DNA from: Arthrinium phaeospermum
Lineage: Eukaryota; Ascomycota; Sordariomycetes; Amphisphaeriales; Apiosporaceae
Direction of reading: 5' to 3'
Length of the DNA: 64,000 nucleotides
Assembly: GCA_006503535.1 (NCBI GenBank)
Contig: QYRS01000014.1
Coordinates: 496,001 to 560,000 of the forward strand
Shown: positions 42,336-60,174 of the stretch, piece by piece
Layout: every line of letters starts with the position of its first letter
Numbering within the stretch: position 1 is the stretch's first letter
Made by a program: the position numbers and the translations under genes
The notes under the pieces: generated by a model
Databases searched by the model: none
What the model saw: the letters and a program-made list of their open reading frames with translations, nothing else
What the model was told of the DNA's origin: nothing

Positions 42336-42400
42336 CTATGATTTCTGGTTAGCGACGACACGGTTCTTGATTGGATGGAAGCGATATATGTAGGACTTAC
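42336..42400 (-). other. Probable 3' UTR intron, paralogue 1
   Basis: On the minus strand it starts GTAAGTCC, contains GTCGCTAACC and ends ATCATAG (65 nt). It begins 22 nt after the stop of the gene at 42423-43184. Confidence 0.65.
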
Positions 42401-42422: not shown

Positions 42423-43184
42423 TCACTTCCTGTATGGTGCGTGCCTAAAGCAGGGTCTGGCTTTTCTGATGGCGCGTGTCTTGGTCTGGATGTGGACTGC
42501 CCATCCATCGCTGCCAAGTGGTCCCTCCATCTCGTGATAGTTGTGCTCGAGCTCAACTTCGGTCGGGTTCATGCCGTCGCTCATGATGCCAGCTTGTAAT
42601 AAAACAAGGTCGTGGAGGACCATGTTCATCATGCCCAGCTCAGGAATGCAGGCCACGAGGTCATCGCCGACAAAAGCAAAGAAGTACTTCTGGGAGGCGC
42701 CGTGCCTGCTCCAGTGGTGAACACCAGTCATGCTTCCATCCTCGAAAGTCTGGTCGACCTCGGAGCGGTGAACCTCAACCACTCCGCCGCGCTTGGCTTC
42801 CTGCTTAGCTTCTCTCATGGCATTGGCGTAGTCGAACCTGGACGTGGGTCCGACTTTGACGCGCACCTGGGGCCTCGCGACGTTCTGACGTGCGGAGGCG
42901 GAAGCCTGGGGCACGACGTTCTGACGGGCGGCGGCGGAAGCCTGAGAGGGCCGGAGGACGGGCCTGATGCCACTTGAGCTGTTCTGCTGAGTCGCGACGG
43001 GAGGAAGGGCGCGCTTGGGGGTGCGGATCTTAATTCTAGGCGGGCTGTAGCCACGGTCCTCTTGCTTCTTGGCGCCGACGCCTGGGTCGCTGTCGTAATG
43101 CATTGTAATGAGCTCCTCGTCAGACGACTCGTCATCCGAGATCCGAATGCGATGGGGATGCGGGACCTTCTTGTAGCGCCGCAT
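42423..43184 (-). CDS. Cluster paralogue 1 (most divergent member)
   Basis: The 253-residue product belongs to the repeated family of this cluster but is the most divergent member. The N-terminal 110 residues are basic and Ser/Gln-rich, with an acidic patch (SDDESSDEE) and an internal duplication around RQNV (AAARQNVV, ASARQNVA). A KKQEDRG remnant resembles the KQED motifs of its neighbours. The C-terminal domain keeps the frame of the family: FDYANAMREAKQEA, then FEDGSMTGVHH, then FFAFVGDDLVACI, then a helix, then DGWAVHIQTK. The LHIGR motif has become VLLQAGIM. The function is unknown. It is divergent from paralogue 2, with about 950 bp between them. Confidence 0.8.
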   Translation of the reverse strand: MRRYKKVPHPHRIRISDDESSDEELITMHYDSDPGVGAKKQEDRGYSPPRIKIRTPKRALPPVATQQNSSSGIRPVLRPSQASAAARQNVVPQASASARQNVARPQVRVKVGPTSRFDYANAMREAKQEAKRGGVVEVHRSEVDQTFEDGSMTGVHHWSRHGASQKYFFAFVGDDLVACIPELGMMNMVLHDLVLLQAGIMSDGMNPTEVELEHNYHEMEGPLGSDGWAVHIQTKTRAIRKARPCFRHAPYRK

Positions 43185-44136
43185 GGCGAATGGAATTACT
43201 GGTGAATCAAAATTCGGTGGCTTGAGTGATGACGTGCAGAAGGGAATCGTCTCTCGTGGTGGCCGAGATGCTCAGTAGTGATGAATGGTTGGTTTTGTTG
43301 CTTTATAACAGTGGCATCCGATGGGTATGGAACAGCGATGGAGACTTGTGAATGCGAGGAAATAAAGCCTTCTGATGAAGGGATCTGCGAGACGAGGAAG
43401 GACAATCGCCGAGCACCTGGAGCTGGTAATTAAACAACATGATTTTACTTGCTGTAAGACTGAAAGGGGATTAGCGTAGTTTTGACCGATTCTCCAGCGT
43501 CTGTGGACCAATAGTAAAACAGCTTTATAAGATACCTAGGCGCGATTACAGGAAGCTTACCACTAGCCTCTGCTCTAACAACCACTGGCAACTTACCTGT
43601 GAAATGTACCTACCTCTTATAGCAGTGAGAAAAGATTGCAGACAATGTACCTAAACGGGTAAGGTCAAGAATCTGAACCAATCAAAAATAAAGTGACCTG
43701 ATCAGTTTGCTTGTTTTCCCCTGTGCTATAGGCCGGACCCACCTTATAAACCCCCTATGCACCTGTAAAATGGTTGCTATCTCGAACAATCACATTGATT
43801 ACAGAAAGTAATGCGTGATTGCAGCATTCGGCAGATCAGCCAGTTACTGATTGTGACCACCTTTGGAGACATAAATGCACCCCTCCTCTCCCACCTTCAT
43901 CCTAACTGTTCTTCTCCTTCTCCTTCTCCCCATCACTTCATCACAACTGATCTGTGACACCAAACACCACACCACAAAACACCTGTTCCGTCATCTGCTT
44001 TTGCTATATAGCAAAACAACAAAACAAACTCATCATACCAACCTTTCTTGCGAACCAAGAAACAAATTCTTTCTCACATCTTCCATCTCCCACCGCGGTA
44101 GAAAACCTCTTCCAGTTTCTACCAACACAAATCAGC
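43185..44136. other. Divergent promoter region of paralogues 1 and 2
   Basis: This shared upstream region contains the 18-bp palindrome at 43999-44016 and long pyrimidine-rich leaders (CTTCTCCTTC repeats near 43908-43930). It has no separate gene. Confidence 0.5.
43999..44016. promoter_or_regulatory. 18-bp palindrome centred on a TATA core
   Basis: TTTTGCTATATAGCAAAA is its own reverse complement. It lies about 120 bp before the ATG of paralogue 2; the 14-bp core recurs at the same place before paralogue 3. It may be a core promoter or a dimeric factor site. Confidence 0.6.
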
Positions 44137-44670
44137 ATGTCTTCCCGCAACACGACTTCCCAACACATTGAGAACATGGAGTTTTTCATCCTTGGCAACC
44201 TCCCCGCCAACAGCTCTCGATCTCTTGTGAGCATTAAACATGAGGACAAGAAGACTAGTGCCCCCGCCTCGCGCAAGCGCCCTTCTTACGACTGGACCGG
44301 CAACTTCGAGATCGCAGAGGAGAAAGCCGAGGCTGCCGGCATCGTGGAGCTACCTACTACCGACTATGGCGACGTCATCGAGGGAGGCAAGATTGCCAAT
44401 CCCCAGAGCCTGCCTCTACGCGCCCGCAAGAACTTCATCATCTACAACGGAACCGATGTGGTGGCTTGCGTCGAAGACCGCCTTAAGTCTTACGCCCTCG
44501 TACAAAAGCTTGCCAAGCTTCACATTGGCCGGGTCCAGCACAGCCTGAGCTTCGATCACGTCGCTCTCGACGTCGAGTACAAGAACATGACTCGCTCCAA
44601 GGATGAGCAGTGCTGGGTGATTTACTTTCACCCCAAGGCGGACTCGAGCGCCAAGCGAGTCAAGGCTTAA
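44137..44670 (+). CDS. Cluster paralogue 2
   Basis: The start at 44137 (MSSRNTTSQH) matches the position used by paralogue 3; the product is 177 residues. The N-terminus carries one SUMO-consensus motif (SIKHEDKK). The family domain runs from about residue 55: SYDWTGNFEIAEEKAEAAGI, VELP, VIEGGKI, NFIIYNGTDVVACVEDR, LAKLHIGR, ALDVEYK and CWVIYFHPK. The C-terminus is basic (SSAKRVKA). It is closest to paralogue 3, sharing AEAAGIV and DVVACV. The family is not known to me; the helix-strand-strand-helix-strand-strand order is inferred from pattern only. A likely 3' UTR intron follows at 44712-44765. Confidence 0.88.
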   Translation: MSSRNTTSQHIENMEFFILGNLPANSSRSLVSIKHEDKKTSAPASRKRPSYDWTGNFEIAEEKAEAAGIVELPTTDYGDVIEGGKIANPQSLPLRARKNFIIYNGTDVVACVEDRLKSYALVQKLAKLHIGRVQHSLSFDHVALDVEYKNMTRSKDEQCWVIYFHPKADSSAKRVKA

Positions 44671-44711
44671 TCGCCACAAGCAGATCGCGGCGTGCTACAG
44701 ACTTTGATTTG

Positions 44712-44765
44712 GTAAGTCTTTTTGATTGATGAGTTTGGCAGCCAAGACCACCGCTAACTATGTAG
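44712..44765 (+). other. Probable 3' UTR intron, paralogue 2
   Basis: It starts GTAAGTCTT, contains ACCGCTAACTA and ends TGTAG (54 nt). It begins 41 nt after the stop and matches the one behind paralogue 3 (TGGTAAGTCT ... ACCGCTAACTATG). Confidence 0.75.
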
Positions 44766-45486
44766 GAGATCTAGTTTGTCGCTACTAAAGTTGGTCGCGG
44801 ATGGTTACTGGGCGGATAATGCGAAGCACCCTGGTGCAGATGATTTGGATGGATTGGTTAATGAACATACTGTACCCACGAGGGAATGACACCAACACCG
44901 ATATTGGATTGGATGACAATGAATGCTGGAAATGATAATTACGGACATGGCCTTGAGAATTGTAGACTCACACAATGAATTGAGCTCCAGCTATGAACAA
45001 ATACTAATGTAACGTGTTTTTCCTGTGCCGATTCTGCGACTTTCCATCCTCTTGTTCACCCCACCACATCCTTTCGTGAGAAACAGTTGGATTGTTGGCG
45101 TTGATTAGCGGGATACCCGAAGCGATGTCTTTACGCATGGTTGAGAAGGACTGGGCTTTTGGTATATAGAAATCGCAAGGGCGTTGCAGCGGAACTTTCT
45201 GGGAGCAAGCGACAACCTGGCAATGTCAAATATGGTCAGATATGGTCAACGACAATGCCTTGATACGAAATTGTTAGACCCCAATGTTAAACTGAGCTTC
45301 AGCTAAACCAAATACCATTGTGATCTTCCCAAGGCCGCTTCTGCTGTAATTTCCCTCTCCTCTTCACCCCATCACGGCCTTTCGTGACCAACACCACCTA
45401 ATGTTGACATATCGAGGTTCTGTCTCATTTCTACCTAACCACCATGCCTTGATTCGATCGGTACCTGCGCGTCACTTGGCGCAAAC

Positions 45487-45874
45487 CCTCCAACCCGACT
45501 ATCAAGCAAAAGGACAACAACATGAAGCAGTCCAACCAGGGTCACTGTCCCGACAGCAGCCATCAACCCCCCAGTCCTGTCAAGGAGGAAGTGGCCAAGG
45601 AAACCCAACCTCACCAGCCCGACTGCCCTGCTGGTATAGTTCCCTTCTCCTTCAGTGGTGCCAAGCTGGAATACCAGAAGAGCAGCTAGAGCGCCGAGGA
45701 ACAGCGCCGAGGAACAGCGCCGAGAAAGAGCGCCGAAGGAAGAGAGCCGGGCTCCCCGATCCCATCCATCTGCCTGAATTGCAGTTGGGCAAGGCTACCA
45801 AGGATGGCAAAGTCAGCGGTGTGTACCACATGGGCAAAGATGGCTTCAGACACTGTATTCCCGAATGGGCCTGA
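45487..45874 (+). pseudogene. Relic R1 of the cluster family
   Basis: One frame gives TIKQKDNNMKQSNQ and SPVKEEVAKE, then stops at a TAG near 45687. After a frame change another gives HLPELQLGKATKDGKVSGVY and ends after HCIPEWA. This matches the middle of the family domain (LP..QVG...DG.L.GLFHM) but lacks everything after it. A triplicated AGCGCCGAGGAAC unit at 45689-45727 lies at the frame change. R1 matches R2 in both its start (IKQ.DNNMKQ) and its upstream CTTCACCCC..CAC..CCTTTCGTG block, also seen near 45050 and 47887. Confidence 0.65.
45689..45727. repeat. AGCGCCGAGGAAC tandem repeat inside relic R1
   Basis: Roughly three 13-bp units, the last imperfect, lie exactly where the reading frame changes. 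Slippage here is a likely cause of the break. Confidence 0.7.
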
Positions 45875-46414
45875 TGGGGGCCCGCTCTACTAATTGCATG
45901 CTTCTCATTGCCACATAAGTCCATTGGTCTCATCTATCTAGCAGACAGTTACCTTCATGTCACCGCGTTAGATCCAGCATTGCATCACCGACGTTCTTGG
46001 CTGATAATGGTCAGAAGACTGGCAAGAAGCAAGCGTCTGAGCAACGTGGAGGTGAACTGGCTTATTGGTGGGCAGCAGCCGACTTCTAGCGTGTGCTCTT
46101 TGCAACTGGCACGGCTACATGAGGATGGCTCATGCTGGAGATTACGAGTAAGATGCACGACGATGGTTGGTATCGAGAGCCATAGACCCCCGTAGTAATG
46201 ATCTTAGACTGAAAATACCTAAGGTACCATGATGTTTTGTTTTCCAGGGCGCCGTACGCCGCATCGCTTTGTCATATTCAGGAACACGGCTGATTTGGAA
46301 CGCGTCGATGTAATTAAAACGTGAAAAGCATGTAAAGTGCCGAAACTGTGATCTATATTCGAAGGGCATGTTTCCACTTTTCGAAAGAGCAGAAACGAAA
46401 TAATTGTTTGCTAG

Positions 46415-46640
46415 TAATTTGGCCCAATCAGAAATTACTTACCACTATCATAACCACCTTCGACCTATTGAATCAGGCCTCTGTAGCAACATCTGCAGCA
46501 TCACCTGCTGTAACAATTAAAACAACCAGACCCACATTTACTGATTCTACTGATCCTGCCTCCGAACCTGCCTCACTGGAAAGACATAAATTCAGGCCTT
46601 CCTCCAGCATCATTCGGACTTCTCTCCCTCTTGCTCTTCC
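46415..46640 (+). repeat. Duplicated upstream block, copy before paralogue 3
   Basis: A block with CCCAATCAG, AACCAC, GGCCTCTGTAGCAAC, CTGATCCTGCCTC and CATAAATTC...CCTTCCTCCAGCATCATTC. It recurs near 48388-48605 and 53545-53775. Confidence 0.75.
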
Positions 46641-46796
46641 CCATCAACTTGACAAGTTTGATGAACAGACCTCAATTCACCCACACTCATTAAAAACAAC
46701 ATCTCCCTCTCTAGTCTCCTCTTTCATTTCCTCAACCAGCTCTTGGTCGTGAAACAACATCAACACACCACACCACACTTGAACCATTCTCTGCTT

Positions 46797-46810
46797 TTGC
46801 TATATAGCAA
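46797..46810. promoter_or_regulatory. 14-bp TATA palindrome before paralogue 3
   Basis: TTGCTATATAGCAA is a perfect palindrome about 110 bp before the ATG. It is the core of the 18-bp palindrome before paralogue 2. Confidence 0.6.
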
Positions 46811-46920
46811 TCAAACCAACTCTCATCCGCTATTCTGAGCTTTCTTGATACCCAAGAAAGCACTTCACTTTCACATCTTCTTTCGCAATAGAAAGCACCT
46901 TCACTTCTTACCAAGCAACC

Positions 46921-47496
46921 ATGTCTCAATCCGGCAAGTACCAGCAGGTCCCGTCCGAGACCAAGACCAAGCCTGAGGTCACCGGTCGCATCACCTCAAC
47001 CAAGTCAACCAAGCCTATCAAGTCAATGAAGTTCATGGCGTCCAAGCAGCCCCCCACCACTGTTGAAGAGGCCATTGAGTTCGACAAGAAGCACCCGGTT
47101 CTCACCCCTCGCAAGGCACCCTCATACAATTGGGCCGCCAATTTTGATGCTGCCGAGGAACAGGCCGAGGCTGCTGGCATCGTGTCGGTGCCCACCCTCG
47201 ACGTTGGCCGCATCATTGTGGATGGCCGAATCACCGACACATTCAATCTCCCCATGTACGGTCCTGAGAACTACATTATTTACGATGGCTCCGACGTGGT
47301 TGCTTGCGTCCGCGACAGGACTAAGTCGTATCCCTTCATTTACCGCCTTGCTAAGCATCATATCGGCGGCCGAGTAAACAACACCTACCAGCACCCCGAC
47401 GGTGTCGAGCTCGACGTCACTTACAAGAGCTTGGGGCGTGATAAGGACGACCGACGCTGGGTGATCTACCTTCGCCCGAAGAAGACCAAGGCTTAA
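46921..47496 (+). CDS. Cluster paralogue 3
   Basis: The 191-residue product starts MSQSGKYQQV. The N-terminus is Lys/Thr/Ser-rich, with repeated TKSTKP-type segments but no exact SUMO-consensus site. The domain begins at SYNWAANFDAAEEQAEAAGI (about residue 70). It continues DVGRIIVDGRI, NYIIYDGSDVVACVRDR, LAKHHIGGRV, GVELDVTYKS and RWVIYLRPKKTKA. It is the sister of paralogue 2: the CDSs, palindromic promoter elements and 3' UTR introns all match, and each is followed by a relic about 0.5-0.8 kb downstream. The function is unknown; the basic tail suggests nuclear localisation. Confidence 0.88.
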   Translation: MSQSGKYQQVPSETKTKPEVTGRITSTKSTKPIKSMKFMASKQPPTTVEEAIEFDKKHPVLTPRKAPSYNWAANFDAAEEQAEAAGIVSVPTLDVGRIIVDGRITDTFNLPMYGPENYIIYDGSDVVACVRDRTKSYPFIYRLAKHHIGGRVNNTYQHPDGVELDVTYKSLGRDKDDRRWVIYLRPKKTKA

Positions 47497-47541
47497 TTGC
47501 CAAGACAAAAAACATTACGGTGTGGTATAGGCTCTTGACTG

Positions 47542-47605
47542 GTAAGTCTATTCAATTGATGGGTTGAAAAACAAAATCTAGAACACCGCTAACTATGAGT
47601 TTCAG
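47542..47605 (+). other. Probable 3' UTR intron, paralogue 3
   Basis: It starts GTAAGTCTA, contains ACCGCTAACTATG and ends TTTCAG (64 nt; a second CAG lies 3 nt later). It begins 45 nt after the stop. Confidence 0.75.
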
Positions 47606-48009
47606 CAGTCCCAGTCTCTTAAGGAAGTCCATCGAGGGTGCTCGTTGGACGGATGACATTGAGCAACCCTCTGAGAAGGTTGGAAAGATCAGATCTGAAT
47701 TTTTGGCATACTGTCGCGAAGGACTACTGGCTATTGCATCTGGCATGGCTGTGGGAGGAAGAGATATGCTTCCGATGACAGATACAGTGATCGAGAATGG
47801 TTAACTCCCATAATGAAATGACCTTCAGCAGCAAATAAGTGCCCATATGGTTTTTCCCAGTGTCTTTCGTGCAATGTCCCATGTTTCTTCGCCCCGCCAC
47901 AGCCTTCTGTGGCCAGCCCCGTCCAGCAGTAGCATATCAAGCTTGCTTCACCCTCAATTCTCACACATTACGGTGCATTGGTTAGATAACTAGCTGCAGG
48001 TCCAAACCG

Positions 48010-48324
48010 TTCGACCCAGCCATCAAGCAAGAGGACAATAACATGAAGCAAACCGTCCAGGAAGGCCGCCCCGCTGATTTGGCCTCCTCGTCATTAACAA
48101 CCGCCAAGCAGGACGAGAAGAGCAGCATACACACCCCCACCTTGGAGCAGCTCCAATGGAAAAAAGCAGAGCTCTCCGACTCCGATAGGCTGCCTAAATT
48201 AACGTCGGGTAAGGTCATCCACAAGGACGGATAGGTCATCGGTATCTACCACATGGATCAAAAGGGCGTTAGGAACTTTCTCCCTTTCACTGCTTCGGTA
48301 ATGTGGAAATTGATAAAAATGTAG
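48010..48324 (+). pseudogene. Relic R2 of the cluster family
   Basis: The frame reads FDPAIKQEDNNMKQTVQE, an intact SUMO-like IKQED, then RLPKLTSGKVIHKDG, an in-frame TAG at 48232, and IGIYHMDQKGVRNFLPF. It ends where the second half of the family domain should start. It matches relic R1 in start, middle and truncation point. It lies downstream of paralogue 3 as R1 lies downstream of paralogue 2. Confidence 0.65.
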
Positions 48325-48387
48325 TCTCTATGTGTTGTCCTCGAAGGCGAAGGGTGACTTCCCGGGTTTGAAATTACTAGCTCCCAG

Positions 48388-48605
48388 TGATTCGACCTAA
48401 TCAGGGAATGACCACCACTGTAACAATCGCCTTAGATCAAACAAATCCGGCCTCTGAAGCAGCCCCTACAGCAGTTTCTACCGTAATAATCAGAACAATC
48501 ATAGCAATCGGGCCTGAACATACTGATCCTGCCTGCCTCTGCGAAAAAAGAAAAACATGAATTGCCGCGTTTCTCCAGCATCATTCTTCTCTCTCTTCCT
48601 CTTCC
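48388..48605 (+). repeat. Duplicated upstream block, copy before paralogue 4
   Basis: It shares ATTCGACC.AATC.GG.A, AACCAC..CTGTAACAATC, CGGCCTCTG.AGCA, CTGATCCTGCCTGCCTC and CCAGCATCATTC.TC with the blocks near 46.5 and 53.6 kb. A TATA-like GTATAAATACC follows at 48632-48642. Confidence 0.7.
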
Positions 48606-48813
48606 TCCCTCCATCAGCTTCTTTGGAGTCGTATAAATACCACTTCCGCTTCCGCCAGACCAAACTGTCTTTATCCTAGGTCCCATCTCTCCATCGCCTG
48701 TAGCGTCTCTTCACTGCCAAGCAACCAACGCAACCCTCCATCTCTTCGAGGCTACCTCAAATGTACAAGACACAACCAACGCAGAACGACACCAGCCAGT
48801 TGTATCTGCCAAG

Positions 48814-49416
48814 ATGCCTCGACATCCCACTCACAACTCGGTCGTCCCTGCTATCAAGCAGGAAGATGCCAAGAAGCAGGATGTCAAGCAGGAGGACATC
48901 AAACAGGAAGACGACAAGCCGGACCTGCAAGCGCTCGAGCCAGCCCGCCGTCAACGCCCTGTTGCTTATGCTGTCTACGACTGGGCTTCCGCCTTTGCCA
49001 AGGCCAGGGGAAAAGCCATGGAGAAGGGCATCGTGGATTACCCACCCCGGCGTGTCGGCCGTGTCATGGAAGACGGCAAGCTCCTCGGCCTGTTCCCTGC
49101 CGAGGTGTACGGCGGCGCCCGTAGTTTCATCGTCTATGACGGCTTTGACGTCCTTGCACGCGTCCAGAATCGCGCCCTCATCGACGGCGTCATCCTCGAG
49201 TTGGCCAGCCTTCACATCGGTCGGCAGGCCAAGACCGACCGTCCCGGCGTGATCGACTTGGTCGTTAAATCGGAGGCGATGCGGGATGATTGGGGCCAGT
49301 TCTGCGGATGGGCCGTCCTGATTCAGCCGGAGACCGTGCCCGGCGTAAAGAGAAAGGCGGAGGAGATCGACCAGGACGATCAGAACACCCCACAGAAGCG
49401 ACGGGCTCGCTGCTGA
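48814..49416 (+). CDS. Cluster paralogue 4
   Basis: The 200-residue product starts MPRHPTHNS. Three psi-K-x-E-D motifs follow (AIKQEDAKK, DVKQED, DIKQEDD, residues 13-32). The domain runs from about residue 54: YDWASAFAKARGKAMEKGI, VGRVMEDGKLLGLF, FIVYDGFDVLARVQNRALI, LASLHIGR, IDLVVKSEAM and CGWAVLIQPE. The tail is basic (VKRKAEE, QKRRARC). Paralogue 5 is its closest relative (shared RALI/PALI, LASLHIGR.A, FCGWAV). The two converge on opposite strands, with about 1.2 kb between their stops. Predicted to be nuclear; the function is unknown. Confidence 0.88.
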   Translation: MPRHPTHNSVVPAIKQEDAKKQDVKQEDIKQEDDKPDLQALEPARRQRPVAYAVYDWASAFAKARGKAMEKGIVDYPPRRVGRVMEDGKLLGLFPAEVYGGARSFIVYDGFDVLARVQNRALIDGVILELASLHIGRQAKTDRPGVIDLVVKSEAMRDDWGQFCGWAVLIQPETVPGVKRKAEEIDQDDQNTPQKRRARC

Positions 49417-49444
49417 GAACCACGATGGTGGACAAATGGGATTG

Positions 49445-49513
49445 GTAAGTTCCCATTAACTTCTTTCCTCCTGTCCCGGCTCCCTGAACCTTTTCTAATG
49501 TCATTTCCCACAG
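49445..49513 (+). other. Probable 3' UTR intron, paralogue 4
   Basis: It starts GTAAGTTCC, contains TTTTCTAATG and ends CCCACAG (69 nt). It begins 28 nt after the stop. Confidence 0.65.
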
Positions 49514-50595
49514 CTCTCGAGAACGGCTCCCACGATTAGACCAACTACGAGACGTAGACTCGAGACGCATTCTGGCTCATCTGCCACACTTGCTGCCATT
49601 GTTACAAAACACCATCTTATGGAGATACGCTTCGTCGCTTCATCTGGATATGTAGACGACGGCTATCGGATTGAGAGTTACCTTGGACGCAAAGGATATG
49701 TGATGGGAGACGTGGATCCGCAAAGACCAAATCTGCTGCTCGATTTATGAGGGGAACCCCTGCTGGGGAACATGGATAGAGTGAACACGAAAAGAATCAT
49801 CAGAGAATCATGGTTCCTGCATTGCTCGAGATGTAATTGAGAATACGAACATTTTGTCCCCTAGTACCATCTCTGATACACAATTCATATTTCCTTGTTC
49901 CTATGTTTTAATACCTGGGGTGTTGATGCTCAACGTGGATTTTATATCTTTTAGGATCGAAAGATCCAAATCGGTACAGATACACGCCAGGACTTCGAAC
50001 CCATCGTCAGTTACTGGTTCTTTCGTCTTGTAAATTCGTGGCTCCCTGTATCCTGGTATGATTAATGCTGGTCTATGACTTTTGACTCGGACCTTTTAGT
50101 AGTGAATAGATAGGTGCCTATTATTGAAGTAGGAGGATTTCAACACAAACGCACTTCCATCTAAACCACCTCTTAATCACGTTGTCATGGCCTAGTTAAA
50201 GCTGTGAAGCACTTGGAACATCACCAGAAGAAATGGAAAGAAGTTAGTTTTACACATCACGCAGGGCAAAAGCTGTTCGTATTTGCTTGGCTATCTCAAG
50301 TGCCACAAGAACCAGCTGTCTCAATAATACAATCCTAATTTCATGGTTCCATGTTCATCTGCTGTTTCCCATCGCGTTGATTCTCATCCAACAAGAAATG
50401 CCAGAACCTGCTAGAATGATTGTGCCTGCCCCGATCCGGCTGTCCAAGATCGGCCTTGGGTCGGCCAAAAATGCCTCCATCTCTTGATAGCATTCCGTGA
50501 TGCTGATGTTCGCAGTTATCCATTCCCTTATTGTACATCATATCCTACAAGGTTTCCTCCCATATTCCTCAAGCGAATGACAGCAAGTGCGTTGC
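49514..50595. other. Convergent 3' flanks of paralogues 4 and 5
   Basis: No further gene is supported. The minus strand near 50530-50545 reads ATGATGTACAATA, matching the 3' UTR motif of paralogues 7 and 8, but no GTAAG donor follows. Confidence 0.45.
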
Positions 50596-51180
50596 TCAGT
50601 GCTCAGTGCGTCGCTTCATCTGCTTGCTGTGGTTCTGATCATCGGCCTGCTTCCGCTTCTTGCCGGGAGGAACCTCGGGCTCGAACATGACAGCCCAGCC
50701 GCAGAAGGCGCCCTCGTCATCCTTCATCATCGCAGTCGTGACGGTAAGTTCAATGTCGTCCAGGTGCTGGCTCTGAGCCTTGCGTCCGATATGCAGACTG
50801 GCGAGGTCGTAGAGCAACTCGTTGATCAAGGCCGGCTCCCGAACACTGGCCAAGACGTCGTAGCCATCGTACGCAATGAACTCGCGCTCGCCGAAGGGAT
50901 TCGTGTCGATGAAGGAGATCAGCTGGCCATCCTGGAAAACGCGGCCGACGCGGGAGGCGGGAAGCTCGGCGATGCCTTCACTGCGGGCCTTCTCCTTGGC
51001 TTCGTGGATGGCGGAGTCCCAGTGGTAGCCAGGGTAGCGAGTCGGGCGCTTACGAGGTGCTGGCTTGGGGTCCTCTTGCTTCAGATCCTCTTGATTGAGA
51101 TCCTCCTGCTTCAAGTCCTCCTGCTTCACGTCTTCGTGCTTGATAGCAGGAGCAGAGGTGTTGCGACCGAATCGAGGCAT
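50596..51180 (-). CDS. Cluster paralogue 5
   Basis: The start at 51180 (MPRFGRNTS) is chosen from the other members; the frame is open upstream. The product is 194 residues. The N-terminus holds a five-fold KQED-type array (IKHED, VKQED, LKQED, LNQED, LKQED) in which one unit has lost its Lys. The domain follows from about residue 51: YHWDSAIHEAKEKARSEGI, VGRVFQDGQLISFI, FIAYDGYDVLASVREPALI, LASLHIGRKA, IELTVTTAMM and FCGWAVMFEPE. It ends GKKRKQ...KQMKRRTEH, a bipartite NLS-like tail. It is the only intact member without an evident 3' UTR intron. Confidence 0.88.
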   Translation of the reverse strand: MPRFGRNTSAPAIKHEDVKQEDLKQEDLNQEDLKQEDPKPAPRKRPTRYPGYHWDSAIHEAKEKARSEGIAELPASRVGRVFQDGQLISFIDTNPFGEREFIAYDGYDVLASVREPALINELLYDLASLHIGRKAQSQHLDDIELTVTTAMMKDDEGAFCGWAVMFEPEVPPGKKRKQADDQNHSKQMKRRTEH

Positions 51181-52204
51181 CGTGACTGATGGTAGTGGAT
51201 AGTTGTTGATGATGAAGGTTGGTAGTTGGTGGTGACGTTGCTTGTTGACGGGAAAGCGGAGAAATAGGGAAGCAGAGAAAAGAAGATGTGCTTGTGAAGG
51301 ACGATGTACTCGTATGTTTCCAGGGATGATGATGGATCTCGATGATTGATGATGGATGTTGATGTTGAGATACAATGTTGCTGTTGAACAGGGAGAAATG
51401 GAGCAAGAGAAGATCTTGGTTACGTGACATCGATTTATTATTTCGTACGGGCATTGAATGCAAGCTTATGCTAGCTATGTGCAGTCCCGCCCACGCGGGT
51501 ACCTTGCATATCATATTTATAGCTCTATGCAAGTGAAGTAGCTGCGAACGAATCGTGGCACGCGTTCTAGTGGTTCTAGGTACCTGACACCTGATGTGAG
51601 CTAGCACGCGAGGCCTTATGGCAATGTGCAACAGGACGTCGGGTAGTAACCCTAACATACTTATAAGCTGATCTCTCCTGTGTTTCGATTGACTGCGAAA
51701 GAGACGGGCTACGAGAATAGAACAAAGTTATGGCAACAAGCCGGGCCAGTCTTCTTGCAGGCTCACACAAGTACAATCCTGAGAATTTGCAAATCACTAA
51801 TGGCAGCAACGAGAGAGGTATGTGTGTGTATGTGTATTTATTGTGGTGAGAAACAGTGAGATGGTCTGTATCCTCAAATTCATCTCTGCCATTCCTATGT
51901 AGGTTTCCATGGCCCTGCATCATGCCTCATGCGTCCATTGCTATAATACACATGCCCATCTTGCCTGTCCAGCAACGATCCATAAACTCGCGCTCATACT
52001 ACCCAAGCATGGTTCCTCCAATATCCGGGACCGCCTCGCATTAAGCAAGTGGCAACATATCTGTGGGGAAGAGGGCTGGAGCGCACTATACAAGAGATTC
52101 GTCGGTAGGTCGTCAAAGGTTCTCGTCGAGGAGAGTGGTCATCACGATTGATGGGATTCAAGCAAATTTCCTCGTGGGAGAACAATCCCATTCGCGCTGA
52201 TAAT
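51181..52204. other. Intergenic between paralogues 5 and 6
   Basis: No gene is supported. The minus-strand leader of paralogue 5 is rich in CATCATC/CAACATC repeats. The right end is the 3' flank of paralogue 6. Confidence 0.4.
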
Positions 52205-52266
52205 CTGCCGCAAAGAAGTTAGCATCGGTAGAAAACTTGGGAGTAGAGTTGTAATTGTGTGCTTAC
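52205..52266 (-). other. Probable 3' UTR intron, paralogue 6
   Basis: The minus strand reads ACTCGCTGGATATG, then GTAAGCACA, with GATGCTAACTTC inside and GCGGCAG at the end (62 nt). The exon side CGACTCGCTGG...TGG matches the donor flank of paralogues 7 and 8. It begins 109 nt after the stop. Confidence 0.75.
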
Positions 52267-52375
52267 CATATCCAGCGAGTCGTCATATATGATACCAAGC
52301 ATAATCCACAGTTTTCGCTCTTCACCAAAGCCAGTGGATGAATCGTTGTCATGTTGTGAGATAGTGAGGTGGTGT

Positions 52376-52996
52376 TTAGGCGCGTCGGGCGCGCTTCTTC
52401 TGGCCCTGATTCGACTTGGCTTGGTCCTCGGCTGACATCTTGACAGCCCATCCGCCCCCCAGGTTGCCCTTGATCTTGATGCGGCTCACATCAAGCTCGT
52501 GGTCATGCGGGTGCGACCAGCCGAGTCTCTCACCGATGTAGAGCCTAGCAAGGTCGTGTACAGCCGTCTCCATCTCAAAGTCCTCAATGCGAGCGAGAAT
52601 GTCGAGCCCGTCGTAGACGATGAAGTTCTGGGCCGGGCGAACCTTGTCCATGTCGAAGAGACCGATCAGTTGGCCTGCCTCGACCACACGACCGACCTGC
52701 ATTGATGGGATATCGTCGATTCCCAGGCTGCGGGCATGCATGGATGCATGTGCGACTGCATCATCCCACTTGTACTCAATCCGAGCTCGAGGGTGGTGGG
52801 TGCGGGCACGCTTCATGCCGGTCTGGTCCTCTTGCTTGATGGCGACTTGGTCATCATCGTCGGTAGTGTAGTCGCTAGCAGCTTGAGAGGCAATGCGTCG
52901 GAGAGGCTTCTTCTCGTCCTTGTCCTCCTTCTTGATGTAGGCGCTTGGGGCCTGGCTGTCGAGGACCTCCCGCTTGACCTTGACGTCACGAGGCAT
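52376..52996 (-). CDS. Cluster paralogue 6
   Basis: The 206-residue product starts MPRDVKVKREVL. It carries three SUMO-consensus motifs (VKRE, IKKED, IKQEDQ) before residue 60. The domain begins at YKWDDAVAHASMHARSLGI (about residue 75). It continues QVGRVVEAGQLIGLFDMD, NFIVYDGLDILARIED, LARLYIGERLGWSHPHDH, LDVSRIKIKG and GGWAVKM. The tail QKKRARRA looks like a nuclear localisation signal. Its nearest relative is paralogue 9. It is transcribed away from paralogue 7, and the two share an intergenic region of about 1.15 kb with two TATA-like ATAAAT sites on each side. Confidence 0.88.
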   Translation of the reverse strand: MPRDVKVKREVLDSQAPSAYIKKEDKDEKKPLRRIASQAASDYTTDDDDQVAIKQEDQTGMKRARTHHPRARIEYKWDDAVAHASMHARSLGIDDIPSMQVGRVVEAGQLIGLFDMDKVRPAQNFIVYDGLDILARIEDFEMETAVHDLARLYIGERLGWSHPHDHELDVSRIKIKGNLGGGWAVKMSAEDQAKSNQGQKKRARRA

Positions 52997-53199
52997 TGTG
53001 ATGAATGAATGAATGGAGTAGAACTTGGTGACGAGGTGTGTGTGGTTTTGGTTTTGGTTGACGAGTGACGAAGGAACTGGTGTGATGACGCGCTAGGTCA
53101 CGATGAAAATTCAATGTGAAGGTTCACGGTGAAGCTTGGTAGAGATTGGTAGAGAAGAGGAAAAAGGTGACAATAGTGAAAGCAGATTGGTCTGGATGA

Positions 53200-53320
53200 G
53201 AGGCGCAATTTATATGTGTCCGGAGAGCTGGAGATGTGGATGTGGATGTGGATGTTGATGAGGAGAGGAGGAAGATCCGGGGAGGGGCCTGGGGAAGGAG
53301 GGGTGTATTTATGCCTTTCC
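53200..53320 (-). promoter_or_regulatory. Two TATA-like sites upstream of paralogue 6
   Basis: On the minus strand, GGCATAAATACACC (near 53311) and ACATATAAATTGCGCCTC (near 53205) lie about 105 bp apart, the same double arrangement as before paralogues 7 and 8. Confidence 0.5.
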
Positions 53321-53544
53321 AGAGGGCTCGGGATCAGTAAGTGTGATTTGATTGACTGATCTGCTTGATTGGTTTTCTGTAACTGAAGCTGTACCGTGGA
53401 TTGTTTGGTGAATCGAAAGTGATTGTTACGAGAGCTTGTGGTGGATTTAGGGGTTTGCTCCCCCTAAAGCTGTTTCGGTACCGTGTAATTGTGGGGCGCC
53501 TTTCCGTTTTTGGAATAATTAGGAATTGAATAATAACCAGCTTC

Positions 53545-53775
53545 TACTAATTCGACCCAATCGGGAAATAACCACTGCTATAATCAACTGAACCAGGCCT
53601 CTGTAGCAACCTCTGTAGCAGCATCTACAGCGGTCTCTACTGCAACAATCGGAACAATTACCAAGTACAGCAAACAAATCCACATTTACTGATCTTGCCT
53701 CTGATCCTGCCTCTCCGGAGAGATATAAATAGACGCCTTCCTCCAGCATTATCTTGCTTCCACCTCTTCCTCTTT
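53545..53775 (+). repeat. Duplicated upstream block, copy before paralogue 7
   Basis: It shares ATTCGACCCAATCGGGAAATAACCAC, AGGCCTCTGTAGCAAC, CCACATTTACTGAT and ATAAAT..ACGCCTTCCTCCAGCAT with the block before paralogue 3 over more than 200 bp. It ends in a TATA-like ATATAAATA at 53722-53732. Confidence 0.75.
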
Positions 53776-53814
53776 CTCTCAACCATCGGTACATCTGAAC
53801 ACATCAGAACACCA

Positions 53815-53880
53815 CAACATCAACATCCATCCGCGTCTTCATCCCTGGAAGTTTATAAATACATCTTCCTTCCCAACCCA
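53815..53880 (+). promoter_or_regulatory. Second TATA-like promoter block of paralogue 7
   Basis: CATCCATCCGCGTCTTCATC followed by TTTATAAATACATCTTCCTTCCC. It is nearly identical to 55585-55643 before paralogue 8, and each lies about 300 bp upstream of the ATG. Confidence 0.65.
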
Positions 53881-54142
53881 GTCTCTTTCTTTTTCTTGCC
53901 ATCTTTCCATCTGGAAAACGCAACAATCCATCACAATCCTCCACCTCGCCTCTTCTACGCGTCTCTTCACCGCGCCTTGCATCCTTCATCAAGCATATTC
54001 TCATCAGCATCATACGGACATTCTGCACAGCTGAAACCACATTTGTTCGTCACAAAACGTCATTGTTGTTTCCAGCACAACTTCTTCTTCACTCATCAGA
54101 ACACAACCACCCACATCAATCGCTGCTATCCACTTAAACAAG

Positions 54143-54844
54143 ATGCCTCGTGGAAAGTCCAGCCAGTTCAACCTGGTCAGCCGTTTCGGCCAAGTCACCC
54201 AGCTCCCCGACGAGTTCGACCAAGAGGCATCCTCCGGCGATGCGATGATCAAGCAAGAGACCTACGATCGCAAGGTCAAACACGAGGCTAGCGAGCGTCC
54301 GAACTTGAACAACTTCGTCAAGCACGAAGACCAGGGCGACAAGAAGCCACGCCGCGCTACAATCAAGCAGGAGGGTCGAGACCTGAAGAAGCGCACCTTG
54401 AATGACCTCTCTGGCGCCCAAGCCCAATACAATTGGGACGTGGAGCGAGACCGCGCCACTGCCAAAGCCAGCCGTCTCGGGCTCAAGGAGCTTCCGGCCA
54501 ACGAGGTCGCCCAGGTCATCGAGCATGGCACGTTGACGAAGATCTTCCACGCCAACTGGCAGTACGAGCAACTCGACAGTTTCTTCCACTACGACGGCCT
54601 TGAAGTCTTGGCCCGTGTGCTTAACTACGATATGCAGGCGGCTGTCTGCGACCTCGCCGCTATTCACATTGGTGAGAGGCTCGGTTGGTCCCATCCGGAC
54701 GACCACGATCTTCAGGTCAGCAGTGTGCAGATGAAGGGAATGAATTCGCGCGCATATGCGGTCAAGGTGTCTCCGCCCAAGGACTACCTGGCCGGGGCCG
54801 TCCAAACCAAGAAGATGCGCGGAGGACGCGCTCGCTACGACTAA
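54143..54844 (+). CDS. Cluster paralogue 7
   Basis: The 233-residue product starts MPRGKSSQFNLVSRFGQV. This start is confirmed by the matching N-terminus of paralogue 8 (FGQ...QLPD.F.Q). It has four SUMO-consensus motifs (IKQET, VKHEA, VKHED, IKQEG) at residues 36-80. The domain runs from about residue 97: YNWDVERDRATAKASRLGL, KELPANEVAQVIEHGTLTK, SFFHYDGLEVLARV, LAAIHIGERLGWSHPDDH and SSVQMKG. The final GGWAV has become RAYAVKVSPPKDY. The tail is basic (KKMRGGRARYD). It is the sister of paralogue 8, which has lost most of the SUMO-like segment. The function is unknown. Confidence 0.88.
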   Translation: MPRGKSSQFNLVSRFGQVTQLPDEFDQEASSGDAMIKQETYDRKVKHEASERPNLNNFVKHEDQGDKKPRRATIKQEGRDLKKRTLNDLSGAQAQYNWDVERDRATAKASRLGLKELPANEVAQVIEHGTLTKIFHANWQYEQLDSFFHYDGLEVLARVLNYDMQAAVCDLAAIHIGERLGWSHPDDHDLQVSSVQMKGMNSRAYAVKVSPPKDYLAGAVQTKKMRGGRARYD

Positions 54845-54919
54845 GTGCGGCCGCACAGGCAAGGAAACAACTCATGCGAGAAACGAGTTGGCAGATTGGT
54901 TTCAGCCAAAAAGCACCAA

Positions 54920-54936
54920 GGATGATGTACGATAGA
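54920..54936 (+). promoter_or_regulatory. Conserved 3' UTR motif, paralogue 7
   Basis: GATGATGTACGATAGAGGCGAT stands 20-40 nt before the 3' UTR intron. It recurs behind paralogue 8 and, degenerate, behind paralogue 5. Confidence 0.55.
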
Positions 54937-54959
54937 GGCGATACGAGTCGCTGGGCTTG

Positions 54960-55020
54960 GTAAGTCATCTACACAACTGGACACCCAGATTCAGTGCTGT
55001 AACTAACAAACCTTCACCAG
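54960..55020 (+). other. Probable 3' UTR intron, paralogue 7
   Basis: The exon CGCTGGGCTTG is followed by GTAAGTCAT; CTGTAACTAACAAA is a strong branch site and the intron ends TTCACCAG (61 nt). It begins 115 nt after the stop. Confidence 0.8.
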
Positions 55021-55446
55021 CTCACCAGTGACAGATGGTACAATTTAATTACGAAGCACCTGGATAATGAGTAATGACGACCCGGCGAACCAGCAGATTC
55101 GACGTTCCCCCCCGACTTGCGCATGACAACACGCCCCAGCTATTGCTGCTACTACGCAATTGCTACTAGCTTCGCTGGGAACAGTTTGGCAACCTTTGGG
55201 GGAATCATGGTTGAACACCAATGGCGCGAGATGGTTAAATTATTGCATGATCGCCGGCTTTTGGACTGCATTTGAATGAAATGGGTCATGAGGTACATAG
55301 GAGCTTGATGATTAATACAGCTGTGTGCCTCTATTTGTCCTGATATTGCCTCCTCTCGTAATTATGTATCATTGCAAGATCTTCTCGTCTTACTTGTGTA
55401 ATGTTTGTTTTCACTTATCTTATCGTTCTGGCCACTTTGCTGTTCT

Positions 55447-55565
55447 TGTATTCAATTGCATAAACCCCAAAGCACCTCGCCATCAGCTACTTGAAGCTCC
55501 GAAACCCAGCTCTCGGTCTACATAAATTGACGCCTTGCTCCAGCATCATTCTACTTCCTCCTCTC
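55447..55565 (+). repeat. Duplicated promoter block before paralogue 8
   Basis: GTATTCAATTGCA, AGCACC.CGC, ATCA.CTACTTG.AGCTC and CAGCTCGGT.TAC are shared with 57166-57245 before paralogue 9. The following CATAAATTGACGCCTTGCTCCAGCATCATTC is shared with the blocks at 46.6 and 53.7 kb. Confidence 0.7.
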
Positions 55566-55584
55566 CTCAACAACATCGACATCA

Positions 55585-55643
55585 GCACCCATCCATCCGC
55601 GTCTTCATCTCTGGGAGCACATAAATACGCCTTTCTTCCCAAG
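55585..55643 (+). promoter_or_regulatory. Second TATA-like promoter block of paralogue 8
   Basis: CATCCATCCGCGTCTTCATC, then CACATAAATACGCCTTTCTTCCC, matching 53815-53880 before paralogue 7. Confidence 0.65.
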
Positions 55644-55945
55644 CCACTGCCTTCTCTTTCTCTTTCTCTTTCATCTTGTCATCTCTGCACCTGACAATCA
55701 AACATCTTGACCACAAACATCCATCGCGACTCGTCACAGCAACTTGTCTCACCACCACACTTCACCACCGCGACTCCTTCATCGCGCTTTACTTCATTCC
55801 ATCTTGCATCACCGCGCAGACTACAAGTCATCAACAAGCACCAAAGAACTCCGTAGTTGTTGTTGACACAACATCTCGATCATTCCCCATCAAATCACAC
55901 TCCAAAAAAACAACCACCATCTTCACTTTCATCAGCTTCATCAAG

Positions 55946-56476
55946 ATGCCTCACGGAAAGATCTCCAAGTCCAGCCAGGCCGCCATCATCTCCAAGTTCG
56001 GCCAGATCGCACAACTGCCCGACTTGTTTGCCCAGGATGAGTCCTCCAACCACGAGATCGAGCGGGAGGTCGACCAGAAGACCTACGATTGGAACGACAA
56101 GAAGAGCCGAGCCATCGCTAAGGCTCGCAGCCTCGGAGTCGCGGAGCTTCCAGCCAACCAAGTGGCTCAGCTCGTCGACCAGGGCACCGTCACGCGCCTG
56201 ATTCACAACAACCAGACCGGCGAGAAGCGCTACAGCTTCTTCTTTTACGATGGCCTTCACGTTTTGGCTTGCATTCAGAACTCCGAGATGGAAGCAGCCG
56301 TCTACGACATCGCGGCCCATTGCTATGGCCAGGTTCTCGGTTGGGCCCACCCGAGCGATTACGCTCTCGAGGTGAGCCGCGTCCAAATGACGGGCGTCTA
56401 CTCAGGCTCGTACGTACTTAAGCTGTCGAGCCCCAAGGACTATCCGTCCGGGAAGCGCACTGCCCGTGCTGGCTAA
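55946..56476 (+). CDS. Cluster paralogue 8
   Basis: The start at 55946 (MPHGKISKSSQAAIISKFGQ) aligns with paralogue 7; the frame is open upstream. The product is 176 residues. The segment carrying SUMO-like motifs in paralogue 7 is reduced here to EIEREVDQKTYDWN, so the linker looks deleted. The domain follows: YDWNDKKSRAIAKARSLGV, AELPANQVAQLVDQGTVTR, FFFYDGLHVLACIQNSEM, VYDIAAHCYGQVLGWAHPSD, SRVQMTG and SYVLKLSSPKDY. LHIGR has become HCYGQ. It ends GKRTARAG. The function is unknown. Confidence 0.87.
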   Translation: MPHGKISKSSQAAIISKFGQIAQLPDLFAQDESSNHEIEREVDQKTYDWNDKKSRAIAKARSLGVAELPANQVAQLVDQGTVTRLIHNNQTGEKRYSFFFYDGLHVLACIQNSEMEAAVYDIAAHCYGQVLGWAHPSDYALEVSRVQMTGVYSGSYVLKLSSPKDYPSGKRTARAG

Positions 56477-56552
56477 GAGCGAATGATGAAAAAGCAACAC
56501 ACACACATGAGATGGCACAATGTCTTGCAGTTCGACTGCAACAAACCCTTAC

Positions 56553-56569
56553 AGATGATGTACGATAGG
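56553..56569 (+). promoter_or_regulatory. Conserved 3' UTR motif, paralogue 8
   Basis: GATGATGTACGATAGGTGCGAT matches the motif behind paralogue 7 at almost every base and lies at the same distance before the intron. Confidence 0.55.
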
Positions 56570-56592
56570 TGCGATGTGGAACGCTGGGTTTG

Positions 56593-56650
56593 GTAAGTAC
56601 TTGATCATGACCGCACCCAACATCAATGCTAACTAGCAAATCTGCACCAG
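56593..56650 (+). other. Probable 3' UTR intron, paralogue 8
   Basis: CGCTGGGTTTG is followed by GTAAGTACT; it contains AATGCTAACTAGC and ends TGCACCAG (58 nt). It begins 116 nt after the stop. Confidence 0.8.
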
Positions 56651-57540
56651 TGCCTTGGATATCTTATTTTATTACGAAGACTCTTTTTGGCCTGCATCCG
56701 CGTCACACATGATACGAGAGCTCACCAAGCTTGACACCCGACGACCTAGCCGACTGGCTAACCACTATGCCCCCAGCACCTTTTCCGGCTAAGCGATCGC
56801 AAGTATCTTCGCAAGGAACAACCTCGTGCTCTTTGGAGGAATTCATGGATGGGTGGGTAGTACAGGCGAGGACGAATGGGATCGTTAGTGGATGGTGGAA
56901 GAACCAATTTGTACACTAGGAATGGATGCAATCGGCGCATTGCAAAGGAATTTGATCTGGCACTGAACTGCCTGGTATGAATCGCAAGATATGCATAAGC
57001 TTGCGGATACCCTACATACCTCTCAAGGAAGTGTGTACACCATTACCTATTCTCATGCTGCTTCCCCTCGTGTTGGGCGCCCTTAAGTTTGACCTCTTCT
57101 CGTACCTATTGTGTGATGTCTGCGATTGCTACATTGCCCTATTAATACATTCCCTCTCCCGTTATTGTATTCAATTGCACACGCTCCAGAGCACCCCGCT
57201 ACAGGCCATCAACTACTTGTAGCTCTGGAAAGCAGCTCGGTTTACTCGACTGAATGACTACCTACGTACACGTAACATACAAATGCCCCACTTCCTCTGG
57301 TTGATCTGCGTCCATCTTCCTTCATCATCAAGGTCTCATCACACTGGAGAGCATCTTTCATCACGCCGATAAAATTTACAGCGCCAGACCATCATCAACC
57401 CCCGAAGGTAGAACATCAACATTCCCTTCAATCGCAACCATCTTCTTTCTCTTCTTCATATTGTTTTCTTTTTTTCTCGAGTCATACCATCCTCGACAGA
57501 GCCATCAACTCACGCGAACACAACCTTTTCCATTACCAAG
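56651..57540. other. Intergenic with promoter of paralogue 9
   Basis: No gene is supported. It holds the duplicated promoter block at 57166-57245 and a pyrimidine-rich leader (TTTCTCTTCTTC, then TTTTCTTTTTTTC) before the ATG at 57541. Confidence 0.45.
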
Positions 57541-58311
57541 ATGTCTCGGATACTAGCCACCCAATTCTCCAACATGTCGGTTGACGAGAACCCCGACGCC
57601 ACCACCACCCACGAGCTCTCGGATCGCAAGATCAATCAGGAGGATCCTGACGGTGATTACTCTGGTAGCATCATTAAGAAGAACGAGAGTGGCAAGCAGA
57701 AGCGACCTCGCAATGTTCCTGCCTACAACACCCGCCGCTCCGAGAGACTCATCAACAGAGCCTCCAGAAAGACCGAGGATAGCGCGAAGAAGCGACGTCG
57801 CCACGTTGGTGACGACGAGGATAACAGCTTCGGGCGGTTCGAAGGCGGGTCGTGGATTTCGGTCGGTGGGAGAGCCCCCCGTCGTACTGATCTCGCCCCC
57901 GCCTTCAACTGGGACCAGGCCACCATGAAAGCCAATAACGAGGCCCGCGACCTGCAAATCGTGGAGATCCCAACAGACCAAGCCGCTCGCATCATGGAAG
58001 GCGGCCAGCTCACCGGGATTTTCCACATCAACATGGTGAACCCCACCCAGGACCCCGTACAGAACTTCATAGTGTACGACGGGCTGGACGTGCTGGCGCG
58101 AATCCAGGACGAGGGCATGGGGAAGGCCGTGTACGATCTGGCCAAGTTGCATATCGGCCGCCGGCTTGGGTGGGATGATCCCCGGGTCCACGGTCTCGAT
58201 TTCTCCAGCGTGGAGATGAAGGGCCTACTCGCGGGTGGCTGGGCGTTGAAGGCGTCTCCTCTGGATCTGGAAAAGGCGCCCTTTCCGAAGAAGCGAGCCC
58301 GCATGGCTTAG
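57541..58311 (+). CDS. Cluster paralogue 9
   Basis: With 256 residues this is the longest member. The N-terminal 120 residues are basic. INQEDPD and IIKKNES look like SUMO motifs that lost the key Lys or Glu, and a strong basic cluster follows (KKRRRHVGDDED). The domain begins FNWDQATMKANNEARDLQI (about residue 122). It continues IMEGGQLTGIFHIN, NFIVYDGLDVLARIQD, VYDLAKLHIGRRLGWDDP, LDFSSVEMKG and GGWALKASP. It ends FPKKRARMA, a classical monopartite NLS pattern. Its nearest relative is paralogue 6. It closes the cluster on the right. The function is unknown. Confidence 0.88.
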   Translation: MSRILATQFSNMSVDENPDATTTHELSDRKINQEDPDGDYSGSIIKKNESGKQKRPRNVPAYNTRRSERLINRASRKTEDSAKKRRRHVGDDEDNSFGRFEGGSWISVGGRAPRRTDLAPAFNWDQATMKANNEARDLQIVEIPTDQAARIMEGGQLTGIFHINMVNPTQDPVQNFIVYDGLDVLARIQDEGMGKAVYDLAKLHIGRRLGWDDPRVHGLDFSSVEMKGLLAGGWALKASPLDLEKAPFPKKRARMA

Positions 58312-58399: not shown

Positions 58400-58463
58400 G
58401 TAAGCATTGCCTGATTCTTACGAGGCTGAGACTGTTCATTTCTAACTAACTCGAGTGAACCAG
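58400..58463 (+). other. Probable 3' UTR intron, paralogue 9
   Basis: It starts GTAAGCATT, contains TCTAACTAACTCG and ends GAACCAG (64 nt). It begins 88 nt after the stop. Confidence 0.75.
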
Positions 58464-59310: not shown

Positions 59311-60174
59311 TTAGAAGTTGGACGAAGCCTTGATCTGCGAGTCAGACTCGACGCCGACATTCTCGACGACGACGGTCTTGCCCGACGCGCTGGTGACGCG
59401 GACGCTCTGCTTGGCGGCGCCGAAGCCGGACGAGTTCTCAAAGTAGTTGTAGTCCTGGCGCTTGGCCTCCTTCCACGACTTGCCGCCGTCGGTGCTGACC
59501 TCGAGCTTGGCGACGGCCTCGTTGGCGTTGACGACCTGCATCGAGAACCAGTAGGGCGAGGTGCCCGACTTGTTGTGCAGCACGAGGGGGCTCGTGATGC
59601 CGCACTCGACCTCGGTCCAGGACGTCGTCATGGGGTCCGACGACCCCGGGGAGAGCGCCTTCCACGCGTCCTCGAACAGGTCCAGGTGGCCCGCGTCGCA
59701 CTCGGGGCACTTGTCGACCACCATGACCTTGATGGTCTTGCCCTTGGCGCTCACCTCGAGGCAGGAGCCGCACTTGGCGCCGTTGTTCCAGGCGGAGCCC
59801 GAGAAGGCGGTGCCGTAGATGCCCGAGGGGATGGTGTAGCTGGAGAAGGAGCAAGTGCCGCCATTCAGGTTGCCGCCGTAGAAGGTGGAGGTGCCCGAGG
59901 TGCCGGCGGCGGCCGAGACTTGCTTGCTGCTGCTCTGGGCGGCCGGAGAGGAGGCGGCGGCGGCTTGCTGCTGGTTCTGGGCAGCCGGGGCGGCGACGGC
60001 CTGCTGTTGGCCCTGGCTGCCGCCGACGGCAGCGGGGGCGGCGGCAACGGCGGCGGGAGAGGCAGCAACGGGAGCGGGCTTGGGTTGCTGCTGTCCCTGG
60101 AGGTGGCGGCCGGCGCAGGCTGCGGAGGCGACCGAGGCCACGAGGGGCAGGAGCTGGATGGCGTTGATCTGCAT
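59311..60174 (-). CDS. Expansin-like secreted protein (DPBB plus C-terminal domain)
   Basis: The single-exon product has 287 residues: a signal peptide (MQINAIQLLPLVASVASA), then an Ala/Gln/Pro-rich linker to about residue 90. A double-psi beta-barrel domain follows at about 95-185 (TFYGGNLNGGTCSF, GIYGTAFSGSAW, KCGSCLEV, VMVVDKCPECDAGHLDLF). The catalytic-type Asp of the barrel is present in VVDKCPEC and in the HLDL motif. The C-terminal part (about 190-287) fits the CBM63-like immunoglobulin fold of expansins (PYWFSMQVVNAN, LEVSTDGGKSWKEAKRQDYNYF). Such proteins loosen cellulose or chitin walls without hydrolysis and act outside the cell. The linker differs from the direct junction of plant expansins. 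Confidence 0.88.
   Translation of the reverse strand: MQINAIQLLPLVASVASAACAGRHLQGQQQPKPAPVAASPAAVAAAPAAVGGSQGQQQAVAAPAAQNQQQAAAASSPAAQSSSKQVSAAAGTSGTSTFYGGNLNGGTCSFSSYTIPSGIYGTAFSGSAWNNGAKCGSCLEVSAKGKTIKVMVVDKCPECDAGHLDLFEDAWKALSPGSSDPMTTSWTEVECGITSPLVLHNKSGTSPYWFSMQVVNANEAVAKLEVSTDGGKSWKEAKRQDYNYFENSSGFGAAKQSVRVTSASGKTVVVENVGVESDSQIKASSNF

Follow-up and report, generated by a model that had tools for sequence, protein, structure and literature searches.

A single-locus family of nine small proteins in Arthrinium phaeospermum that may act as SUMO-modifiable nuclear adaptors

Nine paralogous genes, here named g1 to g9, lie together in a stretch of Arthrinium phaeospermum DNA of 64,000 nucleotides (the window), which represents bases 496,001–560,000 of a 953-kb contig in an assembly of 48.4 Mb and 19 contigs. 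They form a single-locus family whose small products may be intracellular nuclear adaptors that can be modified by the small ubiquitin-like modifier (SUMO), restricted to Apiospora as far as named relatives show. We favour this reading, tentatively. The genes share one domain with a confidently predicted fold, their tails are enriched in two short motifs, splice signals follow most of the stop codons, some of the genes have upstream elements in common, and nonsynonymous substitution (dN) stays below synonymous substitution (dS) in the domain. An earlier reading of the letters of the window (the original prediction) had proposed the paralogues and their domain; the SUMO-type N-terminal tails (N-tails), the basic C-terminal tails (C-tails), the intron past the stop codon and the upstream elements are additions to it.

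The cluster and its shared domain

All nine frames proposed by the original prediction run from ATG to stop on both strands, packed within 16 kb, and the C-terminal domain of about 115 residues that it described aligns across all of them. Its size range of 177–256 residues holds at the upper end; the shortest product has 176 residues.

42423..43184, minus strand: g1, 253 amino acids (aa), domain at aa 117–233
44137..44670, plus strand: g2, 177 aa, domain at aa 51–165
46921..47496, plus strand: g3, 191 aa, domain at aa 69–185
48814..49416, plus strand: g4, 200 aa, domain at aa 55–171
50596..51180, minus strand: g5, 194 aa, domain at aa 52–167
52376..52996, minus strand: g6, 206 aa, domain at aa 75–188
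54143..54844, plus strand: g7, 233 aa, domain at aa 96–210
55946..56476, plus strand: g8, 176 aa, domain at aa 47–161
57541..58311, plus strand: g9, 256 aa, domain at aa 122–239

The kinship of the nine genes goes beyond chance, because g9 alone, used as a query against the whole genome, retrieves the other eight (E-values from 7e-35 to 5.5e-5). Genome searches with g9, g1, g3 and the related proteins P0012, P0006 and P0007 each led to the same nine places. Three additional hits, on C1 and C10, came from two of these six queries and were taken as chance (E 0.35–1.14). These searches, like those for the upstream elements described below, score best candidates only. A family profile built from the nine genes recovers each of them at E ≤4.7e-44. 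All copies found fall within 16 kb, which makes a one-step deletion feasible. A mobile element was rejected as the source of the cluster: the family occupies nine places only, at one locus, and its upstream elements were found nowhere else in the genome. A subtelomeric array was also rejected, the window lying at 496–560 kb within the 953-kb contig.

The mean column identity over the whole alignment of the nine genes is 35%. Once 14 relatives from protein searches are included, giving 23 members, three columns are invariant (A, G and L), and this speaks against a conserved polar catalytic centre. The predicted fold is confident and compact: a helix, an antiparallel sheet bearing the conserved YDGxDVLAR hairpin, a second helix and two strands, with long helices at positions 7–20 and 70–87. 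Comparison of this predicted fold with the PDB gave no clear match; the tail-terminator type folds of Lambda gpU and T5 p142 were one of the closest known systems considered.

The family had been described as unrecognised, and the Pfam scans bear this out, as they gave no match to a well-studied family. Six families matched the 23 members at E ≤1, HSP20 not among them. DUF354 (PF04007) reached 15.2 bits with g3 and 12 bits with g2, below the Pfam cut-off of 22, and its best E-value among the 23 members was 0.005. The only likeness to the HSP20/alpha-crystallin proteins is the automatic UniRef label "SHSP domain-containing" on the relative P0005 (PG985_008045). The HSP20 fold is an all-beta sandwich, whereas the fold predicted here has two long helices, and no alpha-crystallin profile match was obtained. 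Membership of HSP20 was rejected on this partly model-based evidence, and the label is probably a misleading automatic name.

Tail motifs, predicted introns and shared upstream DNA

The N-tails are rich in [VIL]KxE, which would represent consensus SUMO-acceptor sites; a SUMO consensus is stated for a fungus in PMC6638150. The nine N-tails hold 15 such sites, against a shuffle mean of 0.61 and a maximum of 5 in 5000 shuffles, and those of all 23 members hold 29, against 1.22 (maximum 6). The rate in the nine genes is 2.2 per 100 aa (15 in 675), compared with 0.057 per 100 aa (9 in 15,675) in 46 long background frames of the same genome. One site is found in g2, three each in g4 and g6, and four each in g5 and g7; at least one is present in 12 of the 23 members. 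The C-tails are mostly short and basic. Sixteen of 23 contain K[KR]x[KR], a class of nuclear localisation signal (NLS), where 3.2 are expected by shuffling (maximum 10 in 5000); within the cluster these are the C-tails of g2, g3, g5, g6, g7 and g9.

If the preferred reading is correct, the folded domain would be a binding module and not an enzyme, the N-tail would offer SUMO-acceptor sites, three or four each in g4 to g7, and the basic C-terminus would take the protein into the nucleus. From these features we infer nuclear location, SUMO modification and an adaptor role with partners. Several observations weigh against this. N-tail [VIL]KxE is absent from g1, g3, g8 and g9 and from seven of the 14 relatives (P0013 and P0014 are short records lacking the N-tail), and the sites of g4 and g5, lying within a short KQED repeat, cannot be counted as independent. 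The exact C-tail pattern is absent from g1, g4, g8 and four relatives, although the C-tails of these three genes are net positive despite its absence. The motifs themselves do not demonstrate SUMO modification or nuclear location.

The basic C-tails also speak for a different explanation, to which we give a small but real chance, namely a chromatin or nucleic-acid binding family in which the domain or the basic tail would bind directly to DNA or RNA and the paralogues would regulate other genes. A weak resemblance of the modelled domain, among many ties, to the Alba, YajQ and I-DmoI folds points the same way. In eight of the nine genes, in g8 by one only, the folded domain carries a net negative charge, a point that we count for the preferred reading. 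It is very improbable that the products are secreted by a plant-associated fungus or directed at its host. Lineage restriction, which is common among such proteins, would suit this explanation; against it, the N-termini begin with MPR, MSR and the like, no hydrophobic leader is visible in the translations (no signal-peptide predictor was run), and the tails are NLS-like at the C-terminus and SUMO-type at the N-terminus.

Beyond the stop codon, in the presumed 3' untranslated region (3'-UTR), an intron is predicted in eight of the nine genes.

42336..42400, minus strand: predicted intron of g1, 22 nt after the stop
44712..44765, plus strand: predicted intron of g2, 41 nt after the stop
47542..47605, plus strand: predicted intron of g3, 45 nt after the stop
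49445..49513, plus strand: predicted intron of g4, 28 nt after the stop (relaxed and loose patterns, not strict)
52205..52266, minus strand: predicted intron of g6, 109 nt after the stop
54960..55020, plus strand: predicted intron of g7, 115 nt after the stop
56593..56650, plus strand: predicted intron of g8, 116 nt after the stop
58400..58463, plus strand: predicted intron of g9, 88 nt after the stop

Across both strands of the window there are eight occurrences of the strict fungal intron pattern (GTAAG[TC] ... CTAAC ... YAG), seven of them in sense within 300 nt after the stop codon of a family gene. After the stop, 7/9 family genes carry it, versus 0/46 background frames, these being non-overlapping long frames from the window outside the cluster and from six 10-kb stretches. 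The relaxed pattern, which loosens the branch site, follows 8/9 family genes versus 1/46 background frames, and the loosest follows 8/9 versus 4/46. The background frames may in part be spurious, and this weakens the control; g5 has no predicted 3' intron under the strict, relaxed or loosest pattern; and the distance from stop to intron, the subject of the 55-nt rule, exceeds 55 nt only in g6 to g9. These three points also count against the proposed explanation. The distances are 22–45 nt in g1 to g4 and 88–116 nt in g6 to g9.

In Neurospora, 3'-UTR introns can trigger nonsense-mediated mRNA decay (NMD) linked to the exon junction complex (PMC7746235). In Podospora, such introns are found in about 3% of genes (PMC9801653). 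The cluster genes resemble the Neurospora NMD genes in having an intron, here a predicted one, shortly past the stop codon. They differ in that it is predicted, from splice signals, in eight of nine members of one tandem family. If spliced, this intron could hold the mRNA low via NMD until it is needed.

Several genes also share DNA ahead of their coding sequences.

46469..46645, plus strand: upstream element of g3, 68% identical to the g4 element and 70% to the g7 element
48386..48605, plus strand: upstream element of g4, common to g3 and g7
53589..53787, plus strand: upstream element of g7, common to g3 and g4
43965..44083, plus strand: leader region of g2, 73% identical to the g3 leader (46761–46880)

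The element of g3, g4 and g7, roughly 200 bp long, was found at no other place in the genome. With one mismatch allowed, nine 11-mers turn up in five of the nine upstream regions, compared with one and none in two control draws. The g2 and g3 leaders contain a perfect 14-bp palindrome, TTGCTATATAGCAA, at 44001 and 46797 and nowhere else in the window, which could be a candidate regulator site. Downstream DNA is alike only within the pairs g2/g3 and g7/g8. Many genes of the cluster may be under common control through cluster-specific upstream DNA. A wider proposal, which we regard as unlikely though worth stating, is that of a new fold family born in or near Apiospora: a genus-specific set of nuclear SUMO platforms in which the paralogues would act in concert and an ancestral 3'-UTR intron, retained as the genes duplicated, would restrain expression.

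Relatives, age of the duplications and selection

The protein searches covered about 5.8 billion proteins by exact-word matching and may have passed over distant relatives; the first of them missed P0003 despite its 91% identity to g6. They yielded 14 relatives, eight named and six on other contigs. The eight named relatives all belong to Apiospora, a narrow distribution of the kind that the original prediction had named as support for a lineage-specific system.

A. marii: PG985_008040 (g8-like), PG985_008043 (g6-like) and PG985_008045 (g3-like)
A. arundinis: PG990_003067 and PG995_014812
A. aurea: PG986_010175
A. saccharicola: PG988_006139
A. rasikravindrae: PG993_008488

Up to E 10 in two of the protein searches, and up to 0.01 in the third, Apiospora was the only named genus to come up. 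By domain alignment, the Apiospora relatives belong to the same family, and the tails are similar in most. Apart from PG985_008045, they carry only hypothetical or uncharacterised names, and no paper on the family appeared among the publications listed on Apiospora genomes, lineage-specific fungal families, fungal SUMO and 3'-UTR introns. PG985_008043 (P0003) is 91% identical to g6 over a 162-aa query stretch, a likeness that by itself places the genome very probably in Apiospora. In A. marii the three locus tags follow each other nearly consecutively, on same-size contigs, which suggests that the cluster is present in this species too. P0001, P0004, P0010 and P0014 are presumably together on one 86,138-base contig; taken with the A. 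marii tags, this makes the cluster appear to be common to more than one species.

The pairs named as closest by the original prediction do have the highest domain identities (2/3 51%, 4/5 47%, 6/9 54% and 7/8 51%). In a tree of the 23 domains, 2/3 and 7/8 fall into common clades, 6/9 is left unresolved, and g5 pairs with the A. saccharicola protein P0008 and not with g4 (support 83/88). The tree further places g1 in a clade with P0002 (60% identity) and P0012, and gives counterparts to g2 (P0001, 83% identity in the tree columns), g3 (P0004 and the A. marii protein P0005), g6 (P0003 of A. marii) and g8 (P0009 of A. marii and P0010); among the relatives found, no clear one-to-one counterpart is seen for g4 or g9. 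Because g2, g3, g6 and g8 group with partners from other species or contigs, the duplications largely predate the species splits. The four closest paralogue pairs have a dS of 1.35–1.81, near saturation, with a dN/dS of 0.24–0.28 in the domain. The original prediction had implied repeated local duplication; these outside counterparts and dS values do not support such duplication in recent times.

All 36 paralogue pairs have a lower dN than dS in the domain, with g1/g7 at 0.91 versus 0.92; in distant pairs both values are near saturation, and some of these pairs have a dN/dS close to 1. Constraint on the N-tails is looser (dN/dS about 0.3–0.6 in the five pairs measured). At the level of sequence, the frames behave as genes.

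These values bear on two further explanations. A young lineage-specific family whose function is weak or dispensable, and which persists through drift and tandem birth and death, is improbable. The relics described below and the lack of clear counterparts for g4 and g9 among the relatives found would suit it, but dN lies well under dS in the closest domain pairs, g6 is 91% identical to its A. marii counterpart, and splice signals lie past the stop codon in eight of nine genes. Quite improbable is a conflict or self/non-self cluster, in which diverging paralogues are kept by allele or species recognition, as the original prediction had surmised. The packing of paralogues on both strands, the relics, the confinement of named relatives to one genus and the faster N-tails are compatible with it. 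However, domain dN is below dS throughout, g2, g3, g6 and g8 are retained alongside counterparts from other species or contigs, and Pfam showed no HET, NACHT or related domain, whether at E ≤10 in the nine genes or at E ≤1 in the 23 members. A Pfam scan of ten flanking frames gave matches in five, none of them a conflict-type domain, and nothing in the other five. The surmise is left without positive evidence.

Lineage-specific families are common, mostly without a functional handle; the proposed SUMO-modifiable adaptors would offer one, with a compact, confident fold and testable tail motifs. The family could reveal how a young family gets wired into the nuclear SUMO system and mRNA surveillance.

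Relics and flanking frames

Two relics had been proposed within the cluster, and a weak third candidate lies behind g5.

45483..45629, plus strand: relic 1, P0012-like N-tail remnant (tblastn with P0012, E 1.6e-4)
48001..48129, plus strand: relic 2, P0012-like N-tail remnant (tblastn with P0012, E 0.004)
49904–50095, minus strand: third relic candidate, weak (13 profile positions match, E 0.41)

Relic 1 is supported, and weaker matches to g1 and P0002 extend it to 45844. Support for relic 2 is modest: the same P0012 run gives matches elsewhere in the window down to E 0.016, which places it modestly above noise. Both rest mainly on this one A. rasikravindrae protein, and the domain profile reaches only E 0.67 and 5.2 in the two regions.

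Next to the cluster lies a 431-aa protein (40473–41768, minus strand) that matches nothing in Pfam. Contig C16 encodes a paralogue of it at 39% identity, and C2 holds fragments with weaker similarity; its start resembles an F-box type protein. On the other side adjoins an expansin-like protein (59311–60174, minus strand), with Expansin_C slightly over and DPBB_1 slightly under the Pfam cut-off. Further away, a 613-aa frame (12857–14695, plus strand) matches DUF7896 at E 1.2e-35.

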